NCBI GenBank assembly: GCA_900314905.1
Contig: OMXA01000012.1
Span: forward strand, 1 to 54,164
Direction: 5' to 3'
DNA length: 54,164 nucleotides
Origin: an uncultured Erysipelotrichaceae bacterium
GTDB lineage: Bacteria > Bacillota_I > Bacilli_A > Erysipelotrichales > Erysipelotrichaceae
The notes beneath the pieces were generated by a model, which saw only the letters and a program-made list of their open reading frames with translations, was not told the DNA's origin and searched no databases. Position 1 is the stretch's first letter. Each line of letters opens with the position of its first letter. Below, piece by piece: positions 2,245 through 53,356 of the stretch. Both the position numbers and the translations under genes were made by a program.

Positions 2245-2269
2245 TGAGTTCCTCTTTCATATAATCAAG

Positions 2270-2332: not shown

Positions 2333-2339
2333 TTTTTTC

Positions 2340-2567: not shown

Positions 2568-2705
2568 TCTTTTCTCCTTGTTTTCAGTTATCCACATCCT
2601 ATCCCATCCTGAAATGTGATTTTCACACCCAATTTATACTTTCATTATTTATTGAATGAAGGGATTGATAGGATGGGTATTTAATTGATAAGTTTTTAAG
2701 TACCA

Positions 2706-4401: not shown

Positions 4402-4418
4402 TGATCTTTCCTTTCTCA

Positions 4419-6149: not shown

Positions 6150-7927
6150 ACCGCTTCACCCACCTTCCAGTTGACAGCCTTCTGATACTCCGCCCACATG
6201 TCCGCGTAGAGGCCGCCCTTTTCCAGTAGTTCGTCGTGCTTTCCATGTTCTTTCACATGACCGTTATCCAGCACATAGATCCGGTCGGCTTTACGGATTG
6301 TGGAGAGACGATGGGCGATCATGATCACCGTCCGCCCCTTGGCCATCTCCTGGAAAGCCAGCTGCACCTGCGCCTCGCATTCCGGATCCACAAAAGCGCT
6401 GGCTTCATCCAGTATCACCACATCCGCATCCTTCAGCATGGTGCGGGCAATGGCGATGCGCTGCTGCTCGCCGCCTGAGAGGTAGGTCCCCTGGGTGCCC
6501 AGAACCGTGTCGATCCCCTGGGGCATACGCTCAAGGATGTCCGTACATTGGGCTTTTTTCAGAACTTCCAGCATCTCACTCTCGGTCGCGTCCGGCTTGG
6601 CGATCCGCAGATTGTCGGCAATGGAGCGTTTGAGCAGGCGGCTGTCCTGAAATACATAGGCCACATGCCGCATCAGCTCTTCCTTGGAGATCTGGCGGAC
6701 ATCTACGCCGCCGAGCAGCACCTGGCCCTCCTGCGGGTCAAAGAATCGTGAGATCAGCCCGGCGACCGTCGTTTTTCCGCTGCCGGACGGGCCGACGATG
6801 CCGACGATTTCATTTCTTTCCGCTTTCAGGGACAGATCGGACACTGCCGCCGGAGCGTCAGGCGCATAGCGGTAGGTCACGCCTTTCAGCTCCACCGTCG
6901 CGCCGCGCGGTTCCTGACCGTGCTCCGCTTCCGGCAGGGGCTGCAGGCCGAGGATCGAGTCCACCCTGGCCACGGCGTCCTTGACCTTCATGCCGTTCTC
7001 GCTCATGAACATGACCTTGCTCATGGCCGTGGCGATGGCGGGGGTGAAGATGACATAGAACAGGAAGTTCAGCAGGATATCCATCCGATAATTCTCACCG
7101 CGGATCAGGAACAGCGTCACGCCGAGAATAAAGACAAAGGCGCTGTTGATCAGCACGGTGTACCCCAGCATGGACTTGCGCATCATCCGGGTATAGTGCA
7201 TGCAGAATTCACAGTAATCATCGATGGAGGCCTTGAAGCGGTGGAAGGAAAACACGGTCTGCCCGAAGGTCTTGACCACCGGAACGCCCCGCACATACTC
7301 AACAGCCTCGTTGCTCATGCGTTCCAGGGCGTTCTGGTAGAGCCGCATATCCTCCTGCATGGCCGGACCCGCCATACGCATCATGGCGGCAAAGCTGAGG
7401 ATGATGGGAATCAGGCAGGCGACGCCGTAGCGCCAGTCGTAGACAAACAGCATCACCAGCATGCACAGCGGCATGGCGATCGCGCCTGCCATGTCCGGCA
7501 GGTTGTGGGCCAGCAGCGTTTCCGTAGAGCCGGTCACTTCCGTCACGATCCGGCGCAGCTTGCCGGAGCCCATCTCATCCGCAAAACCGATGGGGAGGCA
7601 GGCAATGTGGCGCATCAGCGCCTTTTTCATGTTGGCGGCCGTACGGAACGCGCTGCCGTGAGAACAGACCAGCGCGCCGACATAGACCAGCGCGGCCAGG
7701 ACGGCGAAGAGGACGGCCATCCACCCGTTGCGCACGATCCCTGTCGCCCGTGAGAAATCCGGCTGCACTTCCAGCACTTCACGGATGATCCTCCACAGGA
7801 AGACGAAGGGCATCAGGGACAGCACGCTGCTCAGTGCGGAGAGAATCAGCGACAGGTAGGTCAGTATCTTAAAGCTGCCTGCGTATTCCAGCAGCTCCGA
7901 CAGCGCGCTTTGCTTCTTTTCTTTCAT
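6146..7927 (-). CDS. ABC half-transporter, fused permease and ATPase (A subunit)
   Basis: 593 aa with six predicted helices in the first 320 residues, then Walker A GPSGSGKTT, signature LSGGEQQRIAIARTML, Walker B DVVILDEASAFVDPE and H-loop IAHRLST. Both ATPase sites of the pair look complete, because this subunit and the one at 4419-6149 keep full signature motifs and the Walker B glutamate. It starts 15 bases after the MptD-type gene and overlaps its partner by four bases. Probably the partner half of a heterodimeric importer or exporter; direction cannot be read from sequence. Confidence 0.9.
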   Translation of the reverse strand: MKEKKQSALSELLEYAGSFKILTYLSLILSALSSVLSLMPFVFLWRIIREVLEVQPDFSRATGIVRNGWMAVLFAVLAALVYVGALVCSHGSAFRTAANMKKALMRHIACLPIGFADEMGSGKLRRIVTEVTGSTETLLAHNLPDMAGAIAMPLCMLVMLFVYDWRYGVACLIPIILSFAAMMRMAGPAMQEDMRLYQNALERMSNEAVEYVRGVPVVKTFGQTVFSFHRFKASIDDYCEFCMHYTRMMRKSMLGYTVLINSAFVFILGVTLFLIRGENYRMDILLNFLFYVIFTPAIATAMSKVMFMSENGMKVKDAVARVDSILGLQPLPEAEHGQEPRGATVELKGVTYRYAPDAPAAVSDLSLKAERNEIVGIVGPSGSGKTTVAGLISRFFDPQEGQVLLGGVDVRQISKEELMRHVAYVFQDSRLLKRSIADNLRIAKPDATESEMLEVLKKAQCTDILERMPQGIDTVLGTQGTYLSGGEQQRIAIARTMLKDADVVILDEASAFVDPECEAQVQLAFQEMAKGRTVIMIAHRLSTIRKADRIYVLDNGHVKEHGKHDELLEKGGLYADMWAEYQKAVNWKVGEAV

Positions 7928-7942: not shown

Positions 7943-8515
7943 TCACTGCAAAGCCGCAGCCTGTTTTTTCATCACTTTCTCGGCGAGCCTCATGCCGAGG
8001 ATCGCCACGGGGATCGTCAAAAGCAGCATAACGATCAGCATCGGGATGTTGTCGATCACAGGCTTCATGGCGTCCGCGTAGCCCGCAGGCATTTCCTCCA
8101 CGGCCGCAGCGAGCGATCCCGCCGTATCCGTCCACCAATGCGCGGAATAGGCGTAGAAGGAGAAGGCCAGCGGGATGAAGCTCAGAAGTACGCCGCGCAG
8201 CGTTTCATAGCCGCAGAGCTTCCGGATGAGTTCGGCGGCAAGGGCCAGAAGGATCAGCCCGATGATCATCGGCGGGTTTCCCTCTCCCATAATCAGTCCG
8301 ACGATCAGCACAAAGCCGTTCAACAGCAACGCCGCACCGAAGCCCTGGATCGTCGAAGCGGTATAGAGATACAATAAGCTGAACAGGATTGGGACAAAGG
8401 TCCCGGCATAGGCGTAGCAGGCTGGATGGATCAGTCCGCAGCTGGAAGCGAGGACGAACAATCCAAGATAGATCAAGGCCGCGAGCAGAAGACGAAATAC
8501 GGGAAGCTTTTTCAT
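7943..8515 (-). CDS. MptD-family putative ECF transporter S component (copy 2)
   Basis: 190 aa, about six hydrophobic helices, with VEEMPAGYADAMKPVIDNI near residue 135 matching copy 1. The start at 8515 has AGAGGTG as ribosome site and is the first gene after the promoter/operator at 8540-8592. No ECF A or T component is encoded nearby. The S components could work with the two fused ABC proteins in this unit or with a shared ECF module elsewhere. The ligand is unknown. Confidence 0.8.
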   Translation of the reverse strand: MKKLPVFRLLLAALIYLGLFVLASSCGLIHPACYAYAGTFVPILFSLLYLYTASTIQGFGAALLLNGFVLIVGLIMGEGNPPMIIGLILLALAAELIRKLCGYETLRGVLLSFIPLAFSFYAYSAHWWTDTAGSLAAAVEEMPAGYADAMKPVIDNIPMLIVMLLLTIPVAILGMRLAEKVMKKQAAALQ

Positions 8516-8539: not shown

Positions 8540-8592
8540 TTAGTTAGGCATGACTAACTAACGGTTTATATGAAAGGCTTGACGATCATCAA
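8540..8592 (-). promoter_or_regulatory. promoter and GTTAG-N6-CTAAC operator of the ABC/MptD unit
   Basis: Minus-strand TTGATG (8592-8587), a 16-base spacer and TATAAA (8570-8565) form a promoter. Directly downstream is a perfect palindrome, TTAGTTAG-N6-CTAACTAA (8540-8561), covering the expected start of transcription. The inner core GTTAG-N6-CTAAC is the same as in the two sites upstream of the 15-gene unit at 18656. A repressor bound here would block initiation, the usual mode for TetR-family proteins. Confidence 0.8.
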
Positions 8593-8597
8593 GCCTT
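8574..8597 (-). terminator. terminator hairpin after the 15-gene unit, overlapping the next promoter
   Basis: AAGGCTTGA (8574-8582) and TCAAGCCTT (8589-8597) are exact complements around six bases. On the minus strand the hairpin follows the alpha/beta hydrolase stop and is followed only by TTTCAT, a weak U-tract. The -35 of the next promoter lies inside the stem, so terminator and promoter share bases. Leaky read-through into the transporter unit is likely. Confidence 0.55.
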
Positions 8598-8610
8598 GTA
8601 TTTTTATGCT

Positions 8611-9387
8611 TTATCGTTCCTCGAAGAAAGCCAGCGCCTGCGCGGCAAACTCCTTCGGATGCATCATGACGTATTCGCCGTGCATGCTGTGCGGGATTGT
8701 TACCACTTCGATCTGCGGCAGATATTCCCGGTACCATTTCAGATCCCGGTAGCGGCCGGACCATTCCTCGTCCCCGACCCAGAACTGGATCTTTGACGGG
8801 ATAGCCGGAGCCTTCTTCGGTACGGAGTAGTTGTTGGCGGACCAGAAGATGTTCCAGATCGTTTTATTGCTGAAGGTCTTCAGGTATTTCCGCATTTCCT
8901 CGTATTCTGCTCTGTAGTGTTCAGGATCCCTTGCATAGCGCTCCGGCGGGCAGCCGAGCGCCATCAACCGGATCGAAGTCCGCGCAGTCTTGATCATGAA
9001 GAAGTCCTTTACGCAGATCAGTTTGCAGACCCATTTTGGGAGCTGATAAGGCGCCGTTCCGGCGTCTATGATGACTCTCTCCGCCGGGATGTCCTGCGTC
9101 GTCAGAAAACGGACCGCCATCCCGCCGCCGAAGCTGAGCCCATACAGCGCGTCCAACCGATCGATGCCGCGCTCTTTCAGCCAGCAGACCGTATCGTCCA
9201 CGGTCCTTTCCACGGAGATAAAGTCCGTCCCTTCCTCCGGGTCGTGTCCATCCGGCGTCACCAAAAGGACATGGAACCGCGCCGCCAGCTCCCGTGCGGC
9301 ATAGGCGAATTCCTGCCAGGGCTCGCAGCTCCCCGGGAAGAAGAGGAGGACCTTTTCATTCTGTTGTCCGAATTCGTGAATCAGCAT
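8611..9387 (-). CDS. alpha/beta hydrolase
   Basis: 258 aa. The nucleophile elbow GLSFGG gives Ser85, preceded by an oxyanion region LLFFPGSCEPW. A late PHSMHGEYVMMHP supplies the catalytic His, and the acid is probably in WVGDEEWSG. No signal peptide, so cytoplasmic. It is the last gene of the 15-gene unit, with its ribosome site (GAGGAAA) just after the stop of the preceding membrane-protein gene. Candidate role: hydrolysing an ester or amide bond of the compound handled by this cluster. Substrate unknown. Confidence 0.8.
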   Translation of the reverse strand: MLIHEFGQQNEKVLLFFPGSCEPWQEFAYAARELAARFHVLLVTPDGHDPEEGTDFISVERTVDDTVCWLKERGIDRLDALYGLSFGGGMAVRFLTTQDIPAERVIIDAGTAPYQLPKWVCKLICVKDFFMIKTARTSIRLMALGCPPERYARDPEHYRAEYEEMRKYLKTFSNKTIWNIFWSANNYSVPKKAPAIPSKIQFWVGDEEWSGRYRDLKWYREYLPQIEVVTIPHSMHGEYVMMHPKEFAAQALAFFEER

Positions 9388-9397
9388 GACGATTTCC

Positions 9398-9877
9398 TCA
9401 AAACAGCAAAACGACGATTCCGGCCACGAGAGCCGCGCCGACGATCCAGATCAGCGTCAGGATGCCGCGCTTTTTCATAACCTGCGGCCAGGCCTGAACG
9501 AAGGGGATCTCCTCGGTCCCCGGAATGATCCAAAAGCGGCTGTGTCCGACCCAAAGCCGGTCGATGACAATGCCGTCGTACCAGTTCATGACCTCAAGAA
9601 ACAGCAGCGCCTGCCAATAAGCCGGCCAAAAGCGGCGGACGCCGTTCCAGAGTCCGATGATCAGTACCAGCGCCGAGAGCATGACCAGAAAGAACGGGAT
9701 CATGAAGTACTTCCTTTTTCTGGCGACGGTCTCCCGATTTGTCAGGCCGAGGGCATATACCTTTTCCTGTACAGGCTTGGGATAGAAATACAGTCCGTTC
9801 AACGCGCTGCTGCCCACAGCGAGCTTCACCATCATTGTAAACAGGGCGCAGAACAGAATCAGCTGCAAAACGATCAT
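9398..9877 (-). CDS. small membrane protein, paralogue of 11230-11733
   Basis: 159 aa with about four hydrophobic helices (N-terminal, about 55-75, 85-105 and C-terminal). Between helices lies MNWYDGIVIDRLWVGHSRFW followed by IIPGTEEI, which aligns by eye with FDIVCLDWLLLTKSHFF plus YPETEG in the protein at 11230-11733. So this unit contains two related membrane proteins, each beside an ATC-hydrolase-like gene. I recognise no named family. Function unknown. Confidence 0.65.
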   Translation of the reverse strand: MIVLQLILFCALFTMMVKLAVGSSALNGLYFYPKPVQEKVYALGLTNRETVARKRKYFMIPFFLVMLSALVLIIGLWNGVRRFWPAYWQALLFLEVMNWYDGIVIDRLWVGHSRFWIIPGTEEIPFVQAWPQVMKKRGILTLIWIVGAALVAGIVVLLF

Positions 9878-9890
9878 ATCTTAGCCGCCC

Positions 9891-10499
9891 CTAATCTTTC
9901 CTGATGCAAAAATCGCAGCGTTCACCGCCCCGACCGAGCGTTGACGTCCGTTCAAACTTTAGACCCGGCAGGTCGCCGTAAACATGGTCATCCGCCCCGC
10001 AGGAGATCTTCGTTAGCTCCGGGCATCCCAGCTCCGTAAAATAGCGGTTGTACGGGCAGGACACCACGTCCATCCGGTACTCGCCCTTCTTCTTCGGGTA
10101 GAAAACGTTTTTAAATCCGCTGTTTTCTCCGAACATCTTACGGGTCAGCGGATCCCACATCTTTACAAACAGGCTTTGCATACCGGGCAAGCGCAGCAGC
10201 GCCGAGAGCTTCTTCGCGGCAGCGTCCGCCGTTTTGAAGGTTGCGTCTTCTATGACCCGGTAGGCATCATCCTGGCCGATGCTCTCTTTCAAAGTCAGAT
10301 AGATGGCGGCAGCCGGGAAGATCTTGTTTTCCGTATGGAAACGCACGCCGTCGGAGAGGGAAGTGTACTGCTCCAGCAGCGAGGCCAGCCTGTCCGTCGC
10401 CTTCTGCCACAGGGCGTCGCTCTGCGCCTTCGGCAGCCGACGGTCGATCTCCGCTTTGAATCTGCCTTTCTTTTTCATGATCTTCTGAGAAGATGTCAT
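9891..10499 (-). CDS. L-2-amino-thiazoline-4-carboxylate (ATC) hydrolase family protein, copy 1
   Basis: 202 aa, soluble. The C-terminal half has the family's cysteine pattern: SCPYN (C148), C159, ISCGADDH (C167) and ERCDFC (C195, C198). The family is named after an enzyme opening the thiazoline ring of ATC on the way to cysteine, but most gut Firmicute members have no tested activity. The cysteines together with Asp could bind a metal or an Fe-S cluster; that is inference. The start overlaps the stop of copy 2 by four bases. Confidence 0.75.
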   Translation of the reverse strand: MTSSQKIMKKKGRFKAEIDRRLPKAQSDALWQKATDRLASLLEQYTSLSDGVRFHTENKIFPAAAIYLTLKESIGQDDAYRVIEDATFKTADAAAKKLSALLRLPGMQSLFVKMWDPLTRKMFGENSGFKNVFYPKKKGEYRMDVVSCPYNRYFTELGCPELTKISCGADDHVYGDLPGLKFERTSTLGRGGERCDFCIRKD

Positions 10500-11233
10500 T
10501 TCCTGCTCCTTTGCGAATCATTCTTTTTTCGGCTGATGATAAGGCCCTGCTCGTTCTTCACGTTTTCATAGTTTGCAGCGAGCGGGTTCCTGTCTCCGAC
10601 AATGCAGTAATCGCAGCATTCAGAAGAGCCGCAGGTGCCCTCCCGGATCAGCGCCGCGTGAAGCTTCTGCATGGCAAGGTGGTCGCAGTTGCACATTAAC
10701 GGCAGCACGTCCTCCAGATGGCGCCGTTTGGCAAATTCGGCATTCGGACATTGGGTAAAGCTGTAGCGGACGACGCCGTTGGCCCTGTCGTAGGAGTAAT
10801 ACCCCATGCGGAAGGACGCGGGGAATGCCTTGATCTCTTTTTCTCTGAGGTCATTTGCGCGCTTGAAGGCCTTGTTTGCCAGGCGGTTATCCAATCGACG
10901 GTTGAGATCAAATACCTTTCCCAGCACGTCAAAGCTACCCATAAAGCAGTCATAAACATCCTGCTGTACATCCTCCAGCGGCGGCTTGTCCGGCACGGTT
11001 ACGTACCAGGCGAAGATCAGAATCGGGTCATAGATGCTCACGGTCATTTTCACGCCGCCAAGTGCAGGCTCATCCTTCAAGAATTCCGCATACTGCAGTT
11101 GGATCTTTTCCCACAGCTCGGACGCTGTTTTTTCGTCATAATAGCGATGCAGCAGCTTCTGAACACACTGCTTTGCCTTTTTGGTATAGATCGCATGTTT
11201 GGAACGGTCAATCGGTAAGTCTTTTTCTTTCAC
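10496..11233 (-). CDS. ATC hydrolase family protein, copy 2
   Basis: 245 aa from a GTG at 11233 that has GGAGGG five bases upstream and overlaps the preceding stop as GTGA; an ATG at 11251 lacks a comparable site. The conserved pattern is TQCPNAEF, then PLMCNCDH, then SSECCDYC near the C-terminus, followed by a basic tail of about 35 residues ending RKKNDSQRSRK. Soluble. It sits between a small membrane protein and copy 1. Same caveats on substrate as copy 1. Confidence 0.75.
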   Translation of the reverse strand: MKEKDLPIDRSKHAIYTKKAKQCVQKLLHRYYDEKTASELWEKIQLQYAEFLKDEPALGGVKMTVSIYDPILIFAWYVTVPDKPPLEDVQQDVYDCFMGSFDVLGKVFDLNRRLDNRLANKAFKRANDLREKEIKAFPASFRMGYYSYDRANGVVRYSFTQCPNAEFAKRRHLEDVLPLMCNCDHLAMQKLHAALIREGTCGSSECCDYCIVGDRNPLAANYENVKNEQGLIISRKKNDSQRSRK

Positions 11234-11733
11234 AGCTGCCCTCCGAACCACATCGCAATAAGCGCCATCAGCGCCGCAGCGAACGGGAAAACCGCCAGAC
11301 GGATCATCTGCTCTTTCCGGTTGAAGCCGAAGGAATGATACCCCGCACAGCCCTCCGTCTCAGGGTAGAAGTGCTGGAAGAAATGCGACTTTGTCAGCAG
11401 CAGCCAGTCCAGGCAGACGATATCGAAGGCCTTCCAGAGATAGAGCATGACGGCGAACCTCAGCCAATGCTGCCAGAAAGAAAAATCGTTCTTTACGCCG
11501 TCCCAGCCGCCGTACACGAACGCACCGACCATGGCGAACAGACTGATGATCGCCAGCTTCCAGCCGAGCGCATGCGCCCCCGGAAAGCGCTCCTGGTGCT
11601 CGATCGCCGCGGCCTGGATATCTTTCGGCGCGGTGGTGAAAAAGCGCCTGTCCTGGATCATCGCGACTGCGGCGTACAAAAGCAGACACACCGATAGGAT
11701 AAAAACGAGAGTCAGCAACAAGGTAAGCAGCAT
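11230..11733 (-). CDS. small membrane protein, paralogue of 9398-9877
   Basis: 167 aa with four hydrophobic stretches: the first 25 residues, about 57-75, about 90-110 and the last 25. The conserved loop FDIVCLDWLLLTKSHFF with YPETEGCAGY parallels the paralogue at 9398-9877. The gene order membrane protein, ATC-like, ATC-like, membrane protein is mirror-symmetric and suggests duplication of a two-gene module. Function unknown. Confidence 0.65.
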   Translation of the reverse strand: MLLTLLLTLVFILSVCLLLYAAVAMIQDRRFFTTAPKDIQAAAIEHQERFPGAHALGWKLAIISLFAMVGAFVYGGWDGVKNDFSFWQHWLRFAVMLYLWKAFDIVCLDWLLLTKSHFFQHFYPETEGCAGYHSFGFNRKEQMIRLAVFPFAAALMALIAMWFGGQL

Positions 11734-11740
11734 CCGATCC

Positions 11741-12364
11741 TCACTTTCTTGCCAGCACGGTGATCCACGGCATCTCCGGGTGATGCTCCGCCTTGATCTC
11801 CGAAAAACCTGCGGCTTTCATAGCATTCTGAAGCTGCTGCACCGTATAGTAAGCCATTCCATCTATGATTTTCGCGTATCGGAGGGTCACCTCGTCCGTA
11901 CCGTCCGATTCGTTGCAAATCAAAAAAGATCCGCCCGGCTTCAGCACACGGTACACTTCGGTAAAACACTTCTCCAGACCGGGCCAGAAATAGACGGTTT
12001 CAAAAGCGGTTGCCAGATCAAAGCCGTCCACTTCAAAGGGAAGCGCGGAGACGTTTCCCTGTACCACGCTGCACCTGCCAGCCCTGATCGCCTGACGATT
12101 TGTTTTCTTCGTCATCTCAACGGAGACTTCGGAATAATCCAGTGCGGTAAGCTTTGCTTTCGGATAGCGTTTCAGGAGCTCACGGGCGTTTCGGCCGCCT
12201 CCGCACCCAAGATCGACTATGGCAGATGCGTCGATACCGCGCAGAGAGGACATGCCCCATTCGGCCAGTTTTGCGTGGCCGATGTTCATGCCTCCTGCCA
12301 TCAGCTTTCCGAGAAAGCCCTCCGGCTTCCGGGTCTGATTGCACAGTTTTTGAAAAAGGCCCAT
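11741..12364 (-). CDS. class I SAM-dependent methyltransferase
   Basis: 207 aa from the ATG at 12364, reading MGLFQKLCNQTRKPEGFLGK. The frame stays open further upstream, but only by reading antisense-like sequence inside the previous gene, so I reject the longer form. SAM-binding motif I is IVDLGCGGGRNARELLKRYP near residue 50, with the acidic end of strand 2 at LTALDYS and motif IV-like GNVSALPFEVDGFDLATAFE. This matches the UbiE/type-11 group of small-molecule methyltransferases. Its neighbours on both sides belong to the same transcription unit. Confidence 0.85.
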   Translation of the reverse strand: MGLFQKLCNQTRKPEGFLGKLMAGGMNIGHAKLAEWGMSSLRGIDASAIVDLGCGGGRNARELLKRYPKAKLTALDYSEVSVEMTKKTNRQAIRAGRCSVVQGNVSALPFEVDGFDLATAFETVYFWPGLEKCFTEVYRVLKPGGSFLICNESDGTDEVTLRYAKIIDGMAYYTVQQLQNAMKAAGFSEIKAEHHPEMPWITVLARK

Positions 12365-12374
12365 GTTTCTCGCC

Positions 12375-13160
12375 TCACTTTTTCCCAATGAGGAGGGCGG
12401 AACCGGCGAGCTCCATCCAGACGGATTCCCATTTCGTGATCCAGGTCCCGTCCGTTGTGTCGATAAGCCGGACGTCCGCATAGCCCATGTCTTTCAGTTT
12501 CTTTACAAACGCCTGCATATCGCCGTACTTTGCTTTGGAAAAGATGTCGTGGATCGCAAACATGCCGCCCTTTTTCAGCACCCGCAGGGTCTCCAACAGG
12601 TAGGCCTGCCGGTCGCCGGGAATATTGTGGTAGACATAGTTGCTCACCACCGCGTCGAAGCTTTCATCCGGGAAATCAAGGTGCGTCGCATCTCCTCGCT
12701 GAAAGCTGACGTTGCTCACACCCTCGGCTTTGGCGTTGCTCTCACACAGGGGCTTGTTGAAGGAGGCGTATTCCTTTCCCCAGCGGTCGATGCCGATAAA
12801 GGCAGCCGTCGGATTGCGCTTGGCGCAGGCAATGGCCAGCGCCCCGCTGCCGCAGCCGACATCAAGCCCTTTGCCGTCGTCCGGCAGTTTGACGTATCCC
12901 GCGATCCCTTCGATGATCTTCCGGGACATCTGCCGCTTTCCGTTATAGGAGAAGGCGCGGTAAAGGAGGATCATCCAGACAGAAACGCACAGCCCAATGA
13001 TCGTTCCTGCGAGGAAGACGATAAACAGCACGGTTTTCAACGTGCCGGAAACAATCCCCGTCAGTCCGAATACGATAAACAAAATCAGGAATACTGCTGT
13101 CGCAGCAAAGCCGGAAAGTACCATGCCTTTCGGCATCCAGTTTTTGTAATCAGGCTTCAT
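12375..13160 (-). CDS. membrane-anchored class I SAM methyltransferase
   Basis: 261 aa. Two long hydrophobic helices in residues 12-70 (FAATAVFLILFIVFGLTGIV and VLFIVFLAGTIIGLCVSVWM) anchor a cytoplasmic methyltransferase domain with LDVGCGSGALAIACAKRNP, FIGIDRWG and FDAVVSNYVYHNIPG. The start overlaps the MBL-fold gene stop by four bases. Membrane attachment suggests a lipophilic substrate or coupling to the membrane proteins of the same unit. Substrate unknown. Confidence 0.8.
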   Translation of the reverse strand: MKPDYKNWMPKGMVLSGFAATAVFLILFIVFGLTGIVSGTLKTVLFIVFLAGTIIGLCVSVWMILLYRAFSYNGKRQMSRKIIEGIAGYVKLPDDGKGLDVGCGSGALAIACAKRNPTAAFIGIDRWGKEYASFNKPLCESNAKAEGVSNVSFQRGDATHLDFPDESFDAVVSNYVYHNIPGDRQAYLLETLRVLKKGGMFAIHDIFSKAKYGDMQAFVKKLKDMGYADVRLIDTTDGTWITKWESVWMELAGSALLIGKK

Positions 13161-14023
13161 GTCGTCTTCACCTTTCTCAGCCGCACGGTCCGTGCGCTCT
13201 CTTCCGTATCATCGTCCTCAACGTAGCCGTCATAAGGCGCAGCGGGGTCGGTGTATTTCTCCGCAAAAGGTTTACATAATTCTTTTCTGCGGAGGAATGC
13301 AAAGTCGAGATCGTCCGTCCAGCCTGTGTGCCCGGTGATGATCTTCAGAGGTTTGTTTCGTCTGCGGAGTTCCTTCTCCAGCTTTTCCAGCGAACGGACC
13401 GCCAGCTTGTTGTCCTCGGCCAGCGTGGCGATAAAGCTGTAGCCTCCGTCCGCCCCGAACCAGATCGTGTCGCCGGTGAAAAGGTACTCGTCGTCAATGA
13501 GATAGACCATGTGGCCCCAGGTGTGGCCGGGAACCAGCAGGCACTCGATCTTGATATCGCCGATCTGAAAGACCTCGCCGTCGCGCAGCAGGACCTTTTT
13601 GTTCTCCATCCTGACCATTGGCAATTTATATAGCCCGTGGAATACTTTTCTCCGTGTCTCGCCGGTGAGATAGCGGTTCTCGATCTCGCCGATATAGACG
13701 GTGGCGTCGCGGAAAAGCTGCTCGCTGTCCGTCTCCAGCGCGCCGACGTGGTCTGTGTCCTGGTGCGTGATCAGAATATGTTGGATGGTCGACGGATCGA
13801 TGTCCAGCCAGCCCATCTTTTCCCGCAGCCGGGCGTAGTTATAGCCCGCGTCGATCATGATCGTGACGTTGTTCTTCGTGTAAAAGTAGATGTTGGCGAC
13901 CCACTCACGCACACAGGCGACATGCTCGTCGATGCGTCCGGTGTTCAGAGGCTTGAAGATTGCCTTACCGCGAAACAGCAGGCTCATGGACTTTTTCTGA
14001 TGGTCCGAATCTTTCCTTGCCAT
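13157..14023 (-). CDS. metallo-beta-lactamase-fold hydrolase
   Basis: 288 aa. The metal motif reads THQDTDHVGA (H87, D89, D91, H92): an HxDxDH variant in which Asp replaces the second His of the classical HxHxDH. Later ligands are VPGHTWGHMVYL, FTGDTIWF and ITGHTGW. The C-terminus is acidic then basic (DDDTEESARTVRLRK). Soluble. Members of this fold cleave thioesters, lactones or phosphodiesters, so assignment stops at fold level. Lies between two methyltransferase genes. Confidence 0.85.
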   Translation of the reverse strand: MARKDSDHQKKSMSLLFRGKAIFKPLNTGRIDEHVACVREWVANIYFYTKNNVTIMIDAGYNYARLREKMGWLDIDPSTIQHILITHQDTDHVGALETDSEQLFRDATVYIGEIENRYLTGETRRKVFHGLYKLPMVRMENKKVLLRDGEVFQIGDIKIECLLVPGHTWGHMVYLIDDEYLFTGDTIWFGADGGYSFIATLAEDNKLAVRSLEKLEKELRRRNKPLKIITGHTGWTDDLDFAFLRRKELCKPFAEKYTDPAAPYDGYVEDDDTEESARTVRLRKVKTT

Positions 14024-14032
14024 CTCTCGACC

Positions 14033-14713
14033 TCACTTTCTGCAGCGGAAGCAGCCCATGCCTTCCAAGGAAGACACGCTGACTTCTTCATACATGCCTG
14101 TCAAACGTTGGCGCAGGCTGTCCTCCGTCTCAAAGGGCGGGGTAAAGAAACCCTTCGGGACATACAGCTTTTTGATGAACCAGTCGGTCCTTTTGCATCC
14201 GCCCTGAATGTAAAAGCAGCCGCAGAAGGTCCCGCCCTTCTTCAATACGCGGTATGTTTCGCGCCAGGCCGCTTCCTTGTCCGGAAAAGCGTGGAAGCCG
14301 TTCAGGGAGAGGACGATATCAAAACTCTCGTCTTCAAAGGGCAGCGCGCCGACATCTCCCTGCACGAAGGTGATATTATTGATCCCGGCGTGTTCGGCGC
14401 GTTTTTGCGCCGTTTCCATCATGGCGGCGGAGTAGTCCAGGCAGGTGATCTCAGCCTCCGGGAGATCTTTGTAGACCGGCATGGTCAGCACGCCCGTTCC
14501 GACCGGAACCTCCAGCAGCTTCCCGGAGAAATCTTCCGGAATCCCCGACAGCGCTTTTTCCAGGTACCGGAGGTTCTTGTCTCCGTCCATGTTCCAGACG
14601 ATCCGGCAGATCGCCTTTCCGGCAAGCGTGGAATATGTCATCATCCCGTCATAGAAGCTGGCATGACCGCCCGTCAGCTTATATGCGCTTTTGATCTGTT
14701 CTTTCCGGGTCAT
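14033..14713 (-). CDS. class I SAM-dependent methyltransferase
   Basis: 226 aa. Motif I LLEVPVGTGVLTMPVYKD has the usual DxGxG acidic residue replaced by the EVPVGTG form, followed by ITCLDYSAAMME and FVQGDVGALPFEDESFDIVL. The C-terminus ends GMGCFRCRK, with two cysteines two residues apart. Soluble. Likely a small-molecule methyltransferase; the substrate is not evident. Confidence 0.85.
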   Translation of the reverse strand: MTRKEQIKSAYKLTGGHASFYDGMMTYSTLAGKAICRIVWNMDGDKNLRYLEKALSGIPEDFSGKLLEVPVGTGVLTMPVYKDLPEAEITCLDYSAAMMETAQKRAEHAGINNITFVQGDVGALPFEDESFDIVLSLNGFHAFPDKEAAWRETYRVLKKGGTFCGCFYIQGGCKRTDWFIKKLYVPKGFFTPPFETEDSLRQRLTGMYEEVSVSSLEGMGCFRCRK

Positions 14714-14717
14714 TCGC

Positions 14718-15551
14718 TTATCCTCCGAAAACGATCTTCACGATCTTCATCTTCACCAGACTGTCGCAGAAGCGGATCATCAGCTTGTGAAAAAGCCCCA
14801 CGTTCTTATAAATATCCCGGTAGCCCCGCATGTAGCTCTTTGCAGTCACAGCGGCGAAATGATCGCTCCAAGACTCCAACTCTTTCTCATTTTCAAGAGA
14901 GAAGAAGGCGCTCACATCGGTGATCCCGGCCTCTTTGAGCCAGGTCTTCCGCATCAGCTTCGCGCCGCGTTCGTTGCAGGAGTCGAAAACCAGCACCGCG
15001 CCGGGGAAGCGCTCTGCCATGGCGGAGAACAAACGCCTGACGTCCTCGGTTTTGAAGTAGTATAACACCCCGGCGGCGAAGAATACCGCGCCGTTTGAAG
15101 CGTCGATCGCGTCCATCCATGTGAAGTCGTTGAGATCGCAGGCAAGATTTGTTTCCCGTTCCCCGGTGGGCAGCAGGTCGCTCCGCACTCGGATCACGTC
15201 CGCAAAATCCAGGTTGTATCCCCGGCAGCGTCCGTTGTCCACCTTGGAAAAGGTGTCATCCAGCCCACAGCCGAGATTGACCACGGCGGCCTCCGGGGAC
15301 TCTTTCAGATAGGCCTCGACCTCGCAGCGCAGGTCATACTGCCGCTGCGCCACCTCCAGCGCGCCGAAGAGTCCCGCCGGGGACTCCATCTTTTTCCGCT
15401 TCTCTGCAAAGTCATAATCCAGCGAATCACAGATGCGCTTTGCCGCCGGATCGGAGAATAGTTCCGGGAAGCGTTCGGAACAAACCAGCCGCCCGAAGAG
15501 CGGGATGACCAGCGTCTCCTGCACTGTGTTTTTCTCAATGTGGTATTTCAT
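14718..15551 (-). CDS. leucine-carboxyl-methyltransferase-like (LCMT/PPM family) SAM methyltransferase
   Basis: 277 aa. The N-terminus (VQETLVIPLFGRL, SLDYDF) plus VVNLGCGLDDTFSKVD and YNLDFADVIRVRSDLLP are typical of the LCMT-like family, which in bacteria often methylates carboxyl or hydroxyl groups of polyketide- or peptide-like molecules. A C-terminal part follows (RGYRDIYKNVGLFHKLMIRF). It belongs to a different methyltransferase family from its three neighbours in the unit. Start at 15551, first in its row after the ZIP gene. Substrate unknown. Confidence 0.85.
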   Translation of the reverse strand: MKYHIEKNTVQETLVIPLFGRLVCSERFPELFSDPAAKRICDSLDYDFAEKRKKMESPAGLFGALEVAQRQYDLRCEVEAYLKESPEAAVVNLGCGLDDTFSKVDNGRCRGYNLDFADVIRVRSDLLPTGERETNLACDLNDFTWMDAIDASNGAVFFAAGVLYYFKTEDVRRLFSAMAERFPGAVLVFDSCNERGAKLMRKTWLKEAGITDVSAFFSLENEKELESWSDHFAAVTAKSYMRGYRDIYKNVGLFHKLMIRFCDSLVKMKIVKIVFGG

Positions 15552-15562
15552 ATGTCTTCACC

Positions 15563-16342
15563 TTATCCCAACGCCACGTCCAGCGCCATCATCAGGCTGA
15601 AGCCGATGGCAAAGGACACGACGCCGATGTTGGAATGTTCGCCCGCGGACATTTCCGGGATCAGTTCCTCCACGACCACGTAGAGCATGGCGCCCGCCGC
15701 GAAGGACAGCAGATAGGGCATAGCCGGCACCACCAGCCCCGCTACGATCACAGTCAGCGCGCCGAAAACAGGCTCGACCGCGCCGGAGAGAACGCCCAGC
15801 CAGAAGGACTTCGGCTTGCTCTTGCCCTCGGCGTAGAGCGGCATGGAGATGATCGCACCCTCCGGGAAGTTCTGAATGGCGATACCCAACGCCAGAGCCA
15901 GCGCACCGCCCGCTGTGATGTTTCCCGAACCGCTTAAAAGCCCTGCATAGACGACGCCCACCGCCATCCCCTCGGGTATGTTGTGCAGGGTCACGGCAAG
16001 GACCATCATGGCGGTCCGTGTCAAATGGCTCTTCGGTCCCTCCGCCTGGTCGATGCTCCGGTGCAGATGCGGGACGACATGATCGAGCAGCAGCAAAAAC
16101 AGGATGCCTGCCCAGAAACCGAGGAAGGCCGGAAGAAAGGCGAGCTGCCCCATAGCGGAAGACTGCTCGATAGCCGGGACGATCAGGCTCCAGATGGAAG
16201 CCGCCACCATGACGCCTGCCGCGAAGCCGGTCAGCGCTCGCTGCACGCCGCGCTTCAGGTCGTTTTTCAGAAAGAACACGCAGGCGGCTCCGGCTGAAGT
16301 GCCGATAAAGGGGATCAGAAGCCCCGTGAAGACCGCGTTCAT
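15563..16342 (-). CDS. ZIP-family metal transporter
   Basis: 259 aa, about eight hydrophobic helices. Helix 4 carries the metal motif HNIPEGMAVG and helix 5 carries QNFPEGAIISMP, the GufA-like pattern in which Gln replaces the first His of helix 5. This family carries zinc, iron or manganese inwards. The start overlaps the HMA gene stop by four bases. Its place in a unit with an HMA protein and ABC uptake genes points to a metal connection for the whole cluster. Confidence 0.9.
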   Translation of the reverse strand: MNAVFTGLLIPFIGTSAGAACVFFLKNDLKRGVQRALTGFAAGVMVAASIWSLIVPAIEQSSAMGQLAFLPAFLGFWAGILFLLLLDHVVPHLHRSIDQAEGPKSHLTRTAMMVLAVTLHNIPEGMAVGVVYAGLLSGSGNITAGGALALALGIAIQNFPEGAIISMPLYAEGKSKPKSFWLGVLSGAVEPVFGALTVIVAGLVVPAMPYLLSFAAGAMLYVVVEELIPEMSAGEHSNIGVVSFAIGFSLMMALDVALG

Positions 16343-16593
16343 TTTCTCCCGAACAGCCCTTTCTTCTTATAGGGGGCTGCCTCAACGTTCAGGCAGGTAT
16401 AGCCCGTCGCGGCGATGGCCGATTGCAGTCGCCCGGCATCCACCGCTTCTTCCGACAGAAAGCTTGCCTCGCCCTTCGCGTGGGAAGCAGAGACCTTCTT
16501 CGCAGAGGGGACGGCCTTGCGGATCGTGTCGCAGATATGTGCCTCGCACATGGAGCACATCATCCCGTCAATTTTCAATGTCGTTTTGACCAT
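16339..16593 (-). CDS. heavy-metal-associated (HMA) domain protein, CopZ-like
   Basis: 84 aa. A single ferredoxin-like HMA fold with the metal site GMMCSMCEAHI (C13, C16) at the expected position, and a C-terminal extension ending in the basic stretch YKKKGLFGRK. Such proteins bind soft metals (Cu+, Zn2+, Cd2+) and hand them to transporters. It is coupled to the ZIP gene (ATGA overlap) and lies five bases after an ATC-like gene. Metal identity cannot be told. Confidence 0.85.
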   Translation of the reverse strand: MVKTTLKIDGMMCSMCEAHICDTIRKAVPSAKKVSASHAKGEASFLSEEAVDAGRLQSAIAATGYTCLNVEAAPYKKKGLFGRK

Positions 16594-16597
16594 CGTC

Positions 16598-17233
16598 TTA
16601 TCCTTTCAATTTCTTATACCCGCAGTCGCAGTACGGACCGCCGGAGGCAAGCGTGTACTGCCGCAAGAACTCCGTCGTGCCGCCTGCTTTGCTCATGGTG
16701 TAATCCAGCGCACACATGGCGGGGACGATTTCCGAGATGCCCAGTTCCCGCATCAATGTGCAGATGCCGCATTTGGAAAAGCGGGCTTCATAGCCGCTGC
16801 CGTCCGGATAGGGCATAAACTCCATGTTCCAGGAATAGGGGTTCCGGTTGGCGGCGTTCAGCGCCGCCGTGGCCTTCATGCCGTCAAAGTCTTTTTTGCT
16901 GAACTTCTTTTTCCCTGCCATCCGGCAGAAGGCCCGCATGGGGCCGATCATCATGGCCTTGGCGTAGTACTCCGTCATTTGCTCCAAAGTCGGCTTATGC
17001 TCCATGTTCAGGTAGAAAGCCGCCAGCATGGCGCAGTTAACGATGTTCATTTTGAAGCGGTCGGCCTTCTCAAACTCCGGCAGCCCGGCGATGATCTCTT
17101 TGTATTTCGGCAGGGCTTTCTTTTCGGTCTCTGTCGCAGCTGACTCGCTGAATCCGAAAACACCGACCATCTCCTCACGAAACGAGCGGTGGAAAAGCAG
17201 CCACATTCCCATGGGCATACCGATGTATTTCAT
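16598..17233 (-). CDS. ATC hydrolase family protein, copy 3
   Basis: 211 aa. The C-terminal pattern is SKCGICTLMRELG, PAMCALDY and GGPYCDCGYKKLKG. The last pair is C-x-C (C202, C204) instead of the CDxC of copies 1 and 2, and the first site is CGIC, so its metal or active site may differ. The middle part (TAALNAANRNPYSWNMEFM) resembles the family. Soluble. Start overlaps the upstream membrane-protein stop by four bases. Confidence 0.7.
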   Translation of the reverse strand: MKYIGMPMGMWLLFHRSFREEMVGVFGFSESAATETEKKALPKYKEIIAGLPEFEKADRFKMNIVNCAMLAAFYLNMEHKPTLEQMTEYYAKAMMIGPMRAFCRMAGKKKFSKKDFDGMKATAALNAANRNPYSWNMEFMPYPDGSGYEARFSKCGICTLMRELGISEIVPAMCALDYTMSKAGGTTEFLRQYTLASGGPYCDCGYKKLKG

Positions 17234-17916
17234 TTACCCACCTTCCTTGATGCGCTCAGCAGGCCGCTCATCATCCATAGGTTGCCGATACTGATCCAAC
17301 CGGTGGCCAGCGCATTGGTCAGTCCATAGTTTCCGATCAGCCGCATCACGACGGCAAAAACGAAACCAAACAGTACGGAGAACACCCAGCACCGACGCGG
17401 AAGCGGCGTATGGCCTTTGGAGAACGCCCGGATCTGCACGACGGCGGCAAGCAAGAAAAACACGAGGAAAATCACGGTCACGGGCAACAGGAACCATCCG
17501 ATAAAACACAGCATCTCCTGTATAGCCGTCGCGGGATCGTCCGCATAGAAATGCTTCAGCATCCAAACCGCCATGCAGCAAGGCACGTGAACGCCGCAGC
17601 CACCAAAAGCCAGACAGCCGATGATACCGGCCCGGTAAGCGTGAGCGTCCTTTTCAGAAAAGGGCTTCATCATTCGGTAGATTGCAAACCAACACAGGCA
17701 CTCAATGGGGATGCCGATGAGCCCCAGCAGCGCCGAGACGATGATCCTGCCGTCCGACACGGACAAATACCGCGTGAACACGGCGGGAAGATTCGTCACG
17801 GACGGATCGCTCACGCCCCAACCGAGAAGCATGTCTCCCGTCAAGACCATGAGCGAGGCCAGGATCCCAATTTTCAAAAGATGTCGAATGCGCTGCCAGT
17901 CAAGCGTATCGTTCAT
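17230..17916 (-). CDS. multipass membrane protein, DUF6796-like (copy 2)
   Basis: 228 aa from the ATG at 17916 (MNDTLDWQRIRHLLKIGILA), which overlaps the upstream stop by four bases. The open frame continues to 18606, but that extension is the antiframe of the previous gene. About six helices. LKIGILASLMVLTGDMLLGW, a conserved Asp in helix 1, and GRIIVSALLGLIGIPIE align by eye with the paralogue at 17913-18656. The family name is from memory. Function unknown; probable integral membrane partner of the ATC-like gene next to it. Confidence 0.65.
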   Translation of the reverse strand: MNDTLDWQRIRHLLKIGILASLMVLTGDMLLGWGVSDPSVTNLPAVFTRYLSVSDGRIIVSALLGLIGIPIECLCWFAIYRMMKPFSEKDAHAYRAGIIGCLAFGGCGVHVPCCMAVWMLKHFYADDPATAIQEMLCFIGWFLLPVTVIFLVFFLLAAVVQIRAFSKGHTPLPRRCWVFSVLFGFVFAVVMRLIGNYGLTNALATGWISIGNLWMMSGLLSASRKVGK

Positions 17917-18656
17917 TCCAAAGCCTCCGCGTTTTTCAGCTCTCCCGCCTTGCTCATTTCCCGCAGCAGGATCAGGCCCAGGAGCAGCACCAGCGCATGC
18001 CCGAAGGATTCCGTGCCGTGGTCGAGCTGATTCAGCGGCCAGGGCAGCAGTGTAAAGAGATTTCCGACGATCCCCGGCATCATCAGCGGATTGCAGAGCG
18101 TGGCCAGGATCCGCGCGAGCGTGCCTTTGAGCGGAACGATCTTCTTCCAGACCATTACGATCATGACGACGGTCAGCCCGAGATCGCAGAGAATGAAGGC
18201 GATCAGCATCGGTGCGGCGTTTGCGTAGAACACCCGGTTGGCGATATCCGCCGCAGTCTGCATGTCGCCATAGCTCTGATAAATGTATTTGAATATCAGT
18301 GCCACATTCATAAACATGGCATGGACATAGGACCAGGCGACCGTCCCGGTAATATAGGCGATGCGAAACAGTTTCAACCACTTCCGATTTTTGTCTTCCG
18401 TAATATGGATCTTCAAAAGACCGTACATGCGGTGAAAACCCATGTAGTACAGGAGTGTTCCGACAAATCCGCAGAGGATACTGGCTACCATGCGCCAGGT
18501 GCCCATCTCCAGATAGGCAACACGCACCATGAAGCCAATGTTCTCGGTTGTCTGTCCTTTGCCGGTAGCGGCAAACAGGAAGTCGCCGATCACATACAGA
18601 AGGCATCCGATAATGCCAATGATCAAAAGCCGTTTTGACTTATTTCTGACAAACAT
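17913..18656 (-). CDS. multipass membrane protein, DUF6796-like (copy 1), first gene of the unit
   Basis: 247 aa from the ATG at 18656 with GAAAGG about ten bases upstream; an in-frame ATG at 18701 falls in the operator region and has no ribosome site. About seven helices, starting IIGIIGCLLYVIGDFLFAAT, with WRMVASILCGFVGTLLYYMG and an Asp-containing first helix shared with copy 2. As the promoter-proximal gene of a 15-gene unit it is likely central to the system. Role unknown; it could be a substrate channel or an assembly factor. Confidence 0.7.
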   Translation of the reverse strand: MFVRNKSKRLLIIGIIGCLLYVIGDFLFAATGKGQTTENIGFMVRVAYLEMGTWRMVASILCGFVGTLLYYMGFHRMYGLLKIHITEDKNRKWLKLFRIAYITGTVAWSYVHAMFMNVALIFKYIYQSYGDMQTAADIANRVFYANAAPMLIAFILCDLGLTVVMIVMVWKKIVPLKGTLARILATLCNPLMMPGIVGNLFTLLPWPLNQLDHGTESFGHALVLLLGLILLREMSKAGELKNAEALE

Positions 18657-18706
18657 AATGCATCTACCTTTCAATATATGAGACACAGTAAAGCACCCCA
18701 ACTGAT

Positions 18707-18841
18707 GTTAGCCACAGCTAACCGCTGGCTAAAAAAAGAGAAAACGAATCTTTATCAGAAAGATGTTTTCTTTGAAAGCAAGCCAAATACAGAGGTTAGC
18801 CATCTCTAACCACATTATACTCTAAACTCCGAAGAAATCAA
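18707..18841 (-). promoter_or_regulatory. promoter with two GTTAG-N6-CTAAC operators for the 15-gene unit
   Basis: Minus-strand TTGATT (18841-18836), a 16-base spacer and TATAAT (18819-18814). Operator O1, GGTTAG-N6-CTAACC (18794-18811), begins three bases after the -10 and covers the start site. Operator O2, GTTAGC-CACA-GCTAAC (18707-18722), lies in the leader about 72 bases further on and 50 bases before the ATG. Both share half-sites and spacing with the site at 8540-8561. Two sites may allow looping or cooperative repression. Confidence 0.85.
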
Positions 18842-18843
18842 GA

Positions 18844-18875
18844 GGGAATCGAAAAACATGGGCTTCTCGATTCCC
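18844..18875 (-). terminator. intrinsic terminator after rlmD
   Basis: GGGAATCGA (18844-18852) pairs exactly with TCGATTCCC (18867-18875). On the minus strand the hairpin follows the rlmD stop at 18891 and is followed by TCTTGATTTCTT. The promoter of the 15-gene unit begins two bases beyond the stem, so this hairpin marks the edge between the housekeeping operon and the accessory cluster. Confidence 0.7.
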
Positions 18876-18890
18876 CCTAAACAGTCTTTG

Positions 18891-20495
18891 CTAAATCATC
18901 TGAAAATGCTTTAGTGCAGTCTCTATCGCCCTGGTCTTATCCTCTGGACATCCAGGCTGTTTAGAATCCGGAGATTTCGGTTTGTTATAGTTCTGCCGCT
19001 CGATGATCCCGTGCTTCCGCTTTACCTGGGCAATATTCAGGTGCGTCACATGAAATCCATACTTTTCCTGCACCCACTCCTGGATCTTCTCGTATGTAGC
19101 GCCTTGCCGAAACCCGGACATGTCCAGTTCTTCAAGAGAGAATTCAACTCTGACATTCTGACTCGATATGCTTCCCTTGGAAAGTTGGACAACCGTCTCA
19201 ACATGAAGGGTCCCTGGTAATAAATCAACAGGCTGCACCAGTTTAAGCTCATACCCGTTGCTGCACATGAAAGCAGCATCTCTGGCAAGAGTCGCCGGAT
19301 CGCACGAAACGTAGACAAGCCTGTCAGGAGAAATCTTCAGGATTGCTTTCAGTGTATCTTCAGAGCAGCCTTTTCTAGGGGGATCCACAATTACCACATC
19401 TGCTCTGATATGATTTGCAATCAGTTTTCTTGCTCCCGCCTGAGCATCAGCCGTGAAAAAATCAATATTCTCTCTGTGATTGATTCTTGCATTGATCTCC
19501 GCATCCTTCACCGCATCATGCACAATCTCGATTCCGTAGACTTTCTTTGCATGCATGGAAGCCAGAATGCCGATAGTTCCGGTGCCGCAATAAAGATCTA
19601 TCACGGTTTCCCTGCCAGTCAGTCCGGCAGCTTCAAGAGCCTTGCTGTAAAGGATTCTTGTGGCATAAGGGTTGATCTGATAAAAAGACCGTGCGCTGAT
19701 GCGGAACCGGCAGCCGAGCAGTTCTTCTTCAATATACGGTTTTCCCCATACTGTGATTTCTTTTCCATCAAGAATCACATTATCTTCTCTCCGGTTGATG
19801 ACTGCCAGGATGCTGACAATCTGAGGATACTTTGCAGTCAGCCTGGAAACCAGCTGATCTGAATTGCGGAACGGATATTCCCGTACTACCAAGCAGACCA
19901 TCACCTGCCCAGTCATATGCGCATGTTTGATCAGTACGAAACGCATGGCTTTTGCACAGCTCAGTTCCGCAAACCAGCGATGGCAGTCACGGATGATTGC
20001 ATTGGACAGATCCGTCTGCACCCAGCATCGATCAAATTCCACGATCGTATTCGACCGAGGCTGATAGAACCCCATCAGAACTTTTCCATCAATCACCTGC
20101 ACAGGAACCTGGACTTTGTTCCGATAACCAGTCCGGTGTTCCTCAGTGAGAATCGGCTCCGGAGAAATCTCCATGCGTGCATTCTGCCGGAATACTCCTC
20201 TGACCTTGTCTTCCTTGAAACGCTTCTGCGTTTCCTCGTCCATGTGCATCAGCTGACAGCCTCCGCATTTCCGGTAAACGGAACACGCCGGCTTGACACG
20301 ATGCTCTGAAGGCTTCAGCAGCCTGATGATGCGTGCATAGCCATAATTCTTCTTCATGGCGGTGATTCCAAGTTCTGCTTCTTCCCCTTCAAGAAGCCCC
20401 GGGACGAAGAAAACAATTCCGCCGATATGAACTACGCCTTCGCCATCATATGTATACCCTTCGCAGGTTCCTCGCCAAACTTCATTCTTCTGCAT
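18891..20495 (-). CDS. rlmD: 23S rRNA (uracil-5) methyltransferase, RlmD/RumA type, with C-terminal extension
   Basis: 534 aa from the ATG at 20495 (a GTG two codons earlier is possible). An N-terminal TRAM domain is followed by the Fe-S cysteines C-x5-C-x2-C around residues 71-80 (YRKCGGCQ), then SAM-binding VIDLYCGTGTIGI and catalytic VDPPRKGC and YVSCDPATLARD. The last about 90 residues (SLEELDMSGFRQGATYEKI, KRKHGIIERQNYNKPKS, KTRAIETALKHFQ) are a basic extension I know from some Firmicute members. It methylates U1939-type sites in 23S rRNA. Last gene of the pcrA-gat operon. Confidence 0.9.
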   Translation of the reverse strand: MQKNEVWRGTCEGYTYDGEGVVHIGGIVFFVPGLLEGEEAELGITAMKKNYGYARIIRLLKPSEHRVKPACSVYRKCGGCQLMHMDEETQKRFKEDKVRGVFRQNARMEISPEPILTEEHRTGYRNKVQVPVQVIDGKVLMGFYQPRSNTIVEFDRCWVQTDLSNAIIRDCHRWFAELSCAKAMRFVLIKHAHMTGQVMVCLVVREYPFRNSDQLVSRLTAKYPQIVSILAVINRREDNVILDGKEITVWGKPYIEEELLGCRFRISARSFYQINPYATRILYSKALEAAGLTGRETVIDLYCGTGTIGILASMHAKKVYGIEIVHDAVKDAEINARINHRENIDFFTADAQAGARKLIANHIRADVVIVDPPRKGCSEDTLKAILKISPDRLVYVSCDPATLARDAAFMCSNGYELKLVQPVDLLPGTLHVETVVQLSKGSISSQNVRVEFSLEELDMSGFRQGATYEKIQEWVQEKYGFHVTHLNIAQVKRKHGIIERQNYNKPKSPDSKQPGCPEDKTRAIETALKHFQMI

Positions 20496-20507
20496 ATTCA
20501 CTGTCCG

Positions 20508-53350: not shown

Positions 53351-53356
53351 GCAAAT

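Follow-up and report, generated by a model that had tools for sequence, protein, structure and literature searches.

A GTTAG-N6-CTAAC box as a probable DtxR/MntR-type operator shared by two gene units of an uncultured Erysipelotrichaceae bacterium

Two IdeR dimers occupy the box TTAGGTTAGSCTAACCTAA, with repeats 1 and 3 taken by one dimer and repeats 2 and 4 by the other, and a single IdeR dimer can bind the half-site TTAGG-N4-CCTAA (available part of PMC8464063). Both half-sites of the IdeR box contain TTAG-N6-CTAA, which is the core of GTTAG-N6-CTAAC, a palindrome found three times in a stretch of 54,164 nucleotides, hereafter called the window, from an uncultured Erysipelotrichaceae bacterium (GenBank assembly GCA_900314905.1, contig OMXA01000012.1). 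The copies stand before a unit of transporter genes and a unit of enzyme genes. Comparisons within this genome and with its relatives suggest that the box is probably the operator of a metal-dependent repressor of the DtxR/MntR family, most likely a protein of 133 amino acids encoded outside the window (G000:C19:4166-4564).

The proposed system is like DtxR/IdeR of Actinobacteria in the family of winged-helix metal-dependent repressors, in the TTAG-N6-CTAA half-site spacing and in having targets for iron acquisition (PMC8464063, same part). It differs in several ways. The full 19-bp TTAGGTTAGSCTAACCTAA box was not found in the window, where the best match has five mismatches; the search pattern itself fixed the outer G and C, while the six bases inside are unconstrained and rich in A and T, and a G adjoining GTTAG is rare (4% of 103 distinct exact sites). 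The regulon is made of single boxes, sometimes paired, and the protein has 133 amino acids compared with about 230 residues in the matched IdeR chains. The simplest reading would be a DtxR-type operator for a single dimer, with other flanking bases preferred.

The box is unlike the Bacillus subtilis mntH site given in the available part of PMC9861239. Bacillus MntR resembles the candidate protein in length and is found among its closest solved structures. The candidate differs in carrying Cys for Glu99 and in having feoAB, flavodoxin and FecCD genes as targets. In Streptococcus equi, a DtxR-like regulator, EqbA, is said to go with the yersiniabactin-like siderophore locus for equibactin, and the regulon proposed here would be comparable in that respect. 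Unlike that locus, however, the two units have no nonribosomal peptide synthetase domain in any of their 19 proteins (Pfam) but instead methyltransferases, ATC hydrolases, a heavy-metal-associated (HMA) protein and a ZIP protein. Among the matches listed in the open-licence literature, no published account of DtxR or of an iron regulon in this bacterial family was found, nor any relevant title on TTAGTTAG together with iron and repressor.

The box in the window and in its genome

The three copies (O1 to O3 in Table 1) are exact in both half-sites and in spacing, as the first-pass annotation of the window had stated, and there are no further exact copies in the window. None occurred in 200 random windows simulated with a first-order Markov model. 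When up to two mismatches are allowed the window has five copies, which is below the chance mean of eight, and thus the exact form alone stands out. O1 and O2 begin 2-3 bases past the predicted -10 of their units, so that the expected start site is covered. The arrangement claimed earlier, an operator over the start site of a promoter with a 16-bp spacer, therefore holds for O1 and O2 as far as these predicted promoters go, but O3 is not at a promoter; it belongs to the leader of the enzyme unit, with 50 bases separating it from the start codon (ATG at 18656). The promoter scan listed the enzyme-unit promoter only, the transporter-unit promoter failing the scan rule on its last base, and it gave seven promoter-like sites in the region where 5.9 were expected.

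The distance of 88 bp between O2 and O3 is identical in two relatives (L256 5369/5457; L032 1501/1589). Box pairs in other loci have other distances, for example 45, 74, 96 and 129 bp. The distance within a pair may bear on looping or on cooperative binding.

Both promoters had also been described as overlapping or touching the terminator of the preceding unit. This is the case for the enzyme unit, where a strong terminator-like hairpin touches the -35, but the hairpin over the -35 of the transporter unit resembles a terminator solely when read on the plus strand. On the minus strand, the direction in which the preceding cluster is transcribed, it lacks a T run, and the claim is therefore unsupported there.

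The genome of origin (G000) is a draft of 2.14 Mb, 94.6% complete, with the window as contig C31. It contains six exact boxes, three of them in the window, and a fear that the motif might be frequent at non-promoter positions was not borne out. Boxes with one mismatch number only five, although such a mismatch can take 30 forms. The reversed control pattern gives three exact matches and 64 at up to one mismatch. Outside the window the exact boxes precede gpmA (L001), csoR-copA (L005, copA named by eye) and a DUF3793-flavodoxin gene pair (L006). A second box with one mismatch is located 83 bp away at csoR-copA (L005 1501-1516, L021 1501-1516; G000:C37:8500 and 8583), and another lies 11 bases before feoAB, a feoA-feoB fusion (L024, L436). 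The remaining one-mismatch boxes (L020, L022 and L023) have less clear surroundings; the one in L022 runs into the beginning of a coding region and is probably due to chance.

Some further details of these loci were noted. The box in L006 is followed by the DUF3793 gene with the flavodoxin gene directly after it (1534-2519), and a box pair in L100 also precedes a DUF3793 gene. The L023 box (G000:C49:2516-2531) is about 590 bp from a gene that by eye is a paralogue of the methyltransferase gene at 11741-12364. Genes for csoR-copA, mostly recognised by eye, are near a box also in L033, L036, L038, L040, L047 and L115. This repeated company makes the copper-export operon seem tied to the iron/manganese regulon. 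A CsoR operator-like sequence occurs further downstream in L021.

The box in related genomes

The exact box is present in 58 of 61 genomes of the genus. Its sites were inspected in six relatives only (G013, G034, G038, G042, G046 and G059), with 65 sites among the matches listed. The genes behind them, some identified by eye, encode FeoA, CsoR, a gpmA-type phosphatase, DUF3793, flavodoxin, FecCD, a ZnuA-like protein, a class I aldolase, a DHH/CBS protein, YgbA_NO and TetR, and also proteins of the kinds found in the window units, namely Trep_Strep, ABC, DUF6796, LCM and other methyltransferases. A Pfam tally of 64 downstream proteins gave five FeoA, five TetR_N, five methyltransferases and three Trep_Strep among the first 25 of 60 families, and two each of DUF3793, CsoR, His_Phos (gpmA type), ABC, DUF6796 and LCM. 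The 64 proteins, four of them from the genome of origin, are 62 of the 79 listed open reading frames (ORFs) with gpmA and DUF3793 added; 17 ORFs, mostly short or antisense, were left out by eye, and nine of the 69 sites have no chosen ORF. In two relatives (L092 and L102) a gene of the YgbA_NO (nitrous oxide-stimulated promoter) family is found immediately behind the box. Some boxes, such as those preceding transposase-like or surface-protein genes in G059, lack a link of this kind and may be there by chance; G059 has 17 boxes and 15 control matches. Taken as a whole, the box-bearing genes in the relatives, including the enzyme/ABC cluster, suggest a regulon for metal starvation.

The gene cluster itself was followed in 80 loci, the best of 214 found with the LCM-type methyltransferase as query. 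They are mostly metagenome-assembled genomes from sheep, goat, cattle and other animals, titled Solobacterium, Erysipelotrichaceae, Lachnospiraceae, Oscillospiraceae and the like. These loci contain 94 exact boxes spread over 51 of the 80. Of all GTTAG/CTAAC pairs at spacings from 0 to 12, 94 of 97 have the N6 spacing, leaving three for all other spacings together, and two reversed controls had no match in the same loci. The N6 spacing also prevails elsewhere, with 26 pairs against 4 in 119 DtxR loci, 10 against 1 in 25 ATC loci and 2 against 1 in 70 Fur loci. Although mechanically called ORFs cover 92% of the sequence, 70 of the 94 boxes are outside them and 24 inside. Gene order varies among the loci, and so does the unit gene that the box precedes; for 39 of the 94 boxes no unit gene is as near as 350 bp.

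The box is thus rare, stands before operons with one theme and accompanies the cluster in relatives with a strict N6 spacing. The idea that the two units share one regulator is upheld by this, and their co-regulation appears well supported as far as sequence comparisons reach. The case rests on spacing, position, the theme of the targets, the phylogenetic profile and linkage in a part of the family. It is built on spacing controls because the reversed control is a weak background for the family at large.

The candidate regulator and its alternatives

The genome of origin has one clear DtxR/MntR-type gene; a further PF01325 match does not reach the cut-off. The protein of the clear gene scores 50.3 bits for PF01325 (cut-off 26) and 53.7 bits for PF02742 (cut-off 27). 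The D and E of the N-terminal helix, and a His, a Cys, a Glu and a His, align with residues of MntR that we take to be metal ligands. The Cys is at the position of E99 in B. subtilis MntR, and it is the same in 84 of 90 family members, with His in the other six. Cys at this position is the iron-type ligand of DtxR.

The 90 dtxR-type genes of the family, some genomes contributing two or three, are the best 30 matches and 60 further ones; lower matches and G106, which lacks upstream DNA, are not among them. An exact box is found within 400 bp upstream of 16 of these genes, and the reversed control upstream of none. Genes with one-mismatch sites only bring the number to 28, of which one (L359) looks like chance. 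None of 40 Fur genes has the box upstream; these were hand-picked from the upper matches, leaving aside a number of genomes, many of which had few boxes. In 7 of the 19 upstream regions looked at (L236, L239, L246, L251, L252, L255 and L358), dtxR and feo genes, the latter identified by eye, diverge from a shared stretch that carries the box. In L248, L337, L349 and L354 there is a box and no feo gene was seen in the inspected stretch; in L362, L364, L368 and L379 a one-mismatch box is 51-65 bp before dtxR, and no divergent feo gene was seen. The number of boxes also follows the presence of the protein. Genomes with a strong DtxR match have on average 4.29 boxes (122 genomes), compared with 1.44 in those without (16) and 1.14 in those with a weak match (7); against these 23 together (mean 1.35) the p value is 3e-7. 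The control pattern does not differ with DtxR presence (p 0.92), nor does box number with Fur presence (p 0.69).

If this protein is the repressor, one metal-loaded dimer would occupy each box when Fe(II), and perhaps Mn(II), is sufficient. At O1 and O2 these dimers would cover the -10/+1 region and at O3 the dimer would lie in the leader, with both units blocked. When the metal becomes short the repressor would leave, and the transporter and enzyme units would be switched on together, along with feoAB, flavodoxin, the metal-independent phosphoglycerate mutase and csoR-copA. The sequences show the boxes, how they are conserved and strictly spaced, the genes that they precede and, for some of the relatives, a linkage between box and dtxR-type gene; from these we infer binding, repression, the identity of the metal and the chemistry of the units.

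Several observations weigh against this reading. The p value for box number and DtxR presence is uncorrected for kinship. Family-wide there are 554 boxes and 571 matches to the reversed control, so that genome-wide counts alone fail to prove enrichment. The dtxR-type gene of the genome of origin has no box, and in the genus a box is upstream of 1 of 30 dtxR-type genes (L157, 140 bases) but of 2 of 30 Fur-type genes, a flat linkage that lowers the confidence in a DtxR-type repressor and raises that in some other regulator. No box is found in G088, G099, G120, G173, G174, G182, G190, G196 and G197 despite a strong DtxR match, nor in G047, G049 and G054 of the genus despite PF01325 above the cut-off, while G159 and G188 (88% and 80% complete) have six and eight boxes without a DtxR match. 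The assemblies are drafts. The recognition helix is unlike that of IdeR, as far as the IdeR residues in the available part of PMC8464063 go, and the box lacks the inner GG/CC of IdeR. Lastly, the gpmA, class I aldolase and ZnuA-like targets speak for manganese no less than for iron.

In two genus relatives the box is 82 bases before the start of a Fur/PerR-type gene (L181 1931-1946; L190 1385-1400), and a Fur-type regulator may therefore be under the box in some species. Fur itself was rejected as the regulator; G000, at its given completeness, has no PF01475 match, and Fur is uncorrelated with box number.

That the same repressor senses mainly Mn(II), and that the regulon answers manganese starvation, is rather unlikely. 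In its favour, MntR proteins are the closest solved relatives, and boxes precede genes for a ZnuA-family binding protein and for a DHH/CBS protein. A metal-independent phosphoglycerate mutase is said to answer manganese starvation. A metal-independent aldolase likewise does so in Staphylococcus aureus (available part of PMC9973326). However, feoAB in the genome of origin and in relatives, FecCD and flavodoxin point to iron, iron is put ahead of manganese as the signal, and the residue replacing MntR E99 in nearly all family members is the iron-type one. Copper, which the HMA protein and csoR-copA might suggest, was discarded as the signal, since feoAB, flavodoxin and gpmA have no role in copper handling. 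It is improbable that another regulator, for example of the Rrf2 or MarR type, binds the box and that the dtxR-type genes are mere targets like some Fur-type and TetR genes. The boxless dtxR-type gene of this genome, the genomes with DtxR but no boxes and the Fur-type genes of the genus, which carry the box as often as the dtxR-type genes, would fit such a regulator, but the dependence of box number on DtxR, the linkage of box, dtxR and feo in the family and the half-site spacing shared with IdeR argue for the DtxR-type protein.

The first-pass annotation had favoured a TetR-type repressor, which would respond to a small ligand. The size and position of the palindrome fit this, the geometry being compatible with a DtxR dimer too, and five TetR genes in the surveyed relatives bear the box, some of them beside ABC or MptD-like genes. 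The check proposed with it, to look for a TetR gene whose own promoter bears the box, was negative in this genome, where none of the 11 TetR loci has an exact or one-mismatch N6 box in the examined flanks; two-mismatch N6 sites are found in L010, L015 and L016 and one-mismatch N7 sites in L007 and L014. The box-bearing TetRs have no close counterpart among these loci (best 46% over 48 amino acids), and a TetR-like gene is found in only 5 of the 80 cluster loci (rough hidden Markov model from five sequences). The targets feoAB, flavodoxin and gpmA, moreover, are genes of metal starvation. A TetR-type repressor is very improbable, and the box-bearing TetR genes look like local members of the regulon. 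Hardly credible is the reading of the repeats as RNA hairpins, attenuators or terminators, and not DNA operators. O2 was listed as a weak terminator-like hairpin, and the leader would include O3 and some of O2, but the arms are tied to one sequence and one spacing across the 80 loci, O1 overlaps the expected start site, and the stem is just 5 bp with a free loop.

With a DtxR/MntR-type repressor as the preferred reading, metal shortage becomes the likely signal for a 19-gene group of unknown function whose members turn up again, differently arranged, in many gut bacteria. A word of 16 bases, moreover, lets the same regulon be read from uncultured genomes. No Fur match is found in 35 of 145 genomes of the family, drafts included, which suggests that Firmicutes without such a match may control iron by a short DtxR-type protein on one-dimer sites. 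Tentatively, a compact DtxR-type sensor on single-dimer boxes could even act as master regulator for iron and manganese throughout a family of gut Firmicutes, controlling a so-far-undescribed metal-scavenging pathway and coupling iron starvation to copper export via csoR-copA, but we regard this wider claim with some doubt. The parts of the pathway would be the ATC hydrolases, the methyltransferases, the metallo-hydrolase, the HMA and ZIP proteins, and the paired ABC transporters with MptD-like proteins.

Genes and neighbours of the two units

The transporter unit has four genes and the enzyme unit 15, all transcribed leftward, which agrees with the 19 genes counted before (Table 1). Together they probably form a metal-scavenging (metallophore-type) uptake and processing pathway, a description that rests on presumed chemistry. 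The statement that the window holds no regulator gene stands for the part scanned, as no regulator family was matched among the 19 unit proteins (Pfam).

Table 1. Control elements and genes of the two units, in window positions
Feature	Position	Strand	Remark
Operator O1, TTAGTTAG-GCATGA-CTAACTAA	8540-8561		exact core 8543-8558; over expected start site of transporter unit
Operator O2, GGTTAG-CCATCT-CTAACC	18794-18811		exact core 18795-18810; over expected start site of enzyme unit
Operator O3, GTTAG-CCACAG-CTAAC	18707-18722		leader of enzyme unit, downstream of O2
Transporter-unit promoter	-35 TTGATG 8592-8587; -10 TATAAA 8570-8565	minus	predicted; 16-bp spacer; consensus match 9/12
Enzyme-unit promoter	18841-18814	minus	predicted; -35 TTGATT, 16-bp spacer, -10 TATAAT; consensus match 10/12
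Hairpin	8574-8597		overlaps transporter-unit -35
Terminator-like hairpin, strong	18841-18878	minus	after preceding gene (18891-20501)
Trep_Strep/MptD-like membrane protein, putative S component, transporter gene 1	7943-8515	minus	PF09605; below NCBIfam cut-off
ABC transporter, fused membrane and ATPase domains	6146-7927	minus	PF00664, PF00005
ABC transporter, fused membrane and ATPase domains	4419-6149	minus	PF00664, PF00005
Second Trep_Strep/MptD-like membrane protein	3850-4431	minus	PF09605; scanned as 3850-4398
DUF6796 membrane protein, enzyme-unit gene 1	17913-18656	minus	PF20599
DUF6796 membrane protein	17230-17919	minus	PF20599
ATC-hydrolase family protein	16598-17233	minus	PF14196
HMA domain protein	16339-16593	minus	PF00403
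ZIP metal transporter	15563-16342	minus	PF02535
LCM-type methyltransferase	14718-15551	minus	PF04072
S-adenosylmethionine (SAM) methyltransferase	14033-14713	minus	Pfam scan
Metallo-beta-lactamase-fold hydrolase	13157-14023	minus	PF00753
SAM methyltransferase	12375-13160	minus	Pfam scan
SAM methyltransferase	11741-12364	minus	presumed start 12364; longer ORF reaches 12481
Membrane protein (by eye)	11230-11733	minus	no Pfam family
ATC-hydrolase family protein	10496-11251	minus	PF14196
ATC-hydrolase family protein	9891-10499	minus	PF14196
Membrane protein (by eye)	9398-9877	minus	no Pfam family
Alpha/beta hydrolase, last enzyme-unit gene	8611-9387	minus	PF12697

An Rfam search gave no RNA element at the boxes, and its only match in the window is a T-box leader on the minus strand (53140-53351; RF00230, 115.5 bits). 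At the left end of the window, adjoining the transporter unit, are a large serine-recombinase-like gene and a small replication-protein-like gene (284-3122, by eye), which possibly mark the border of a mobile element.

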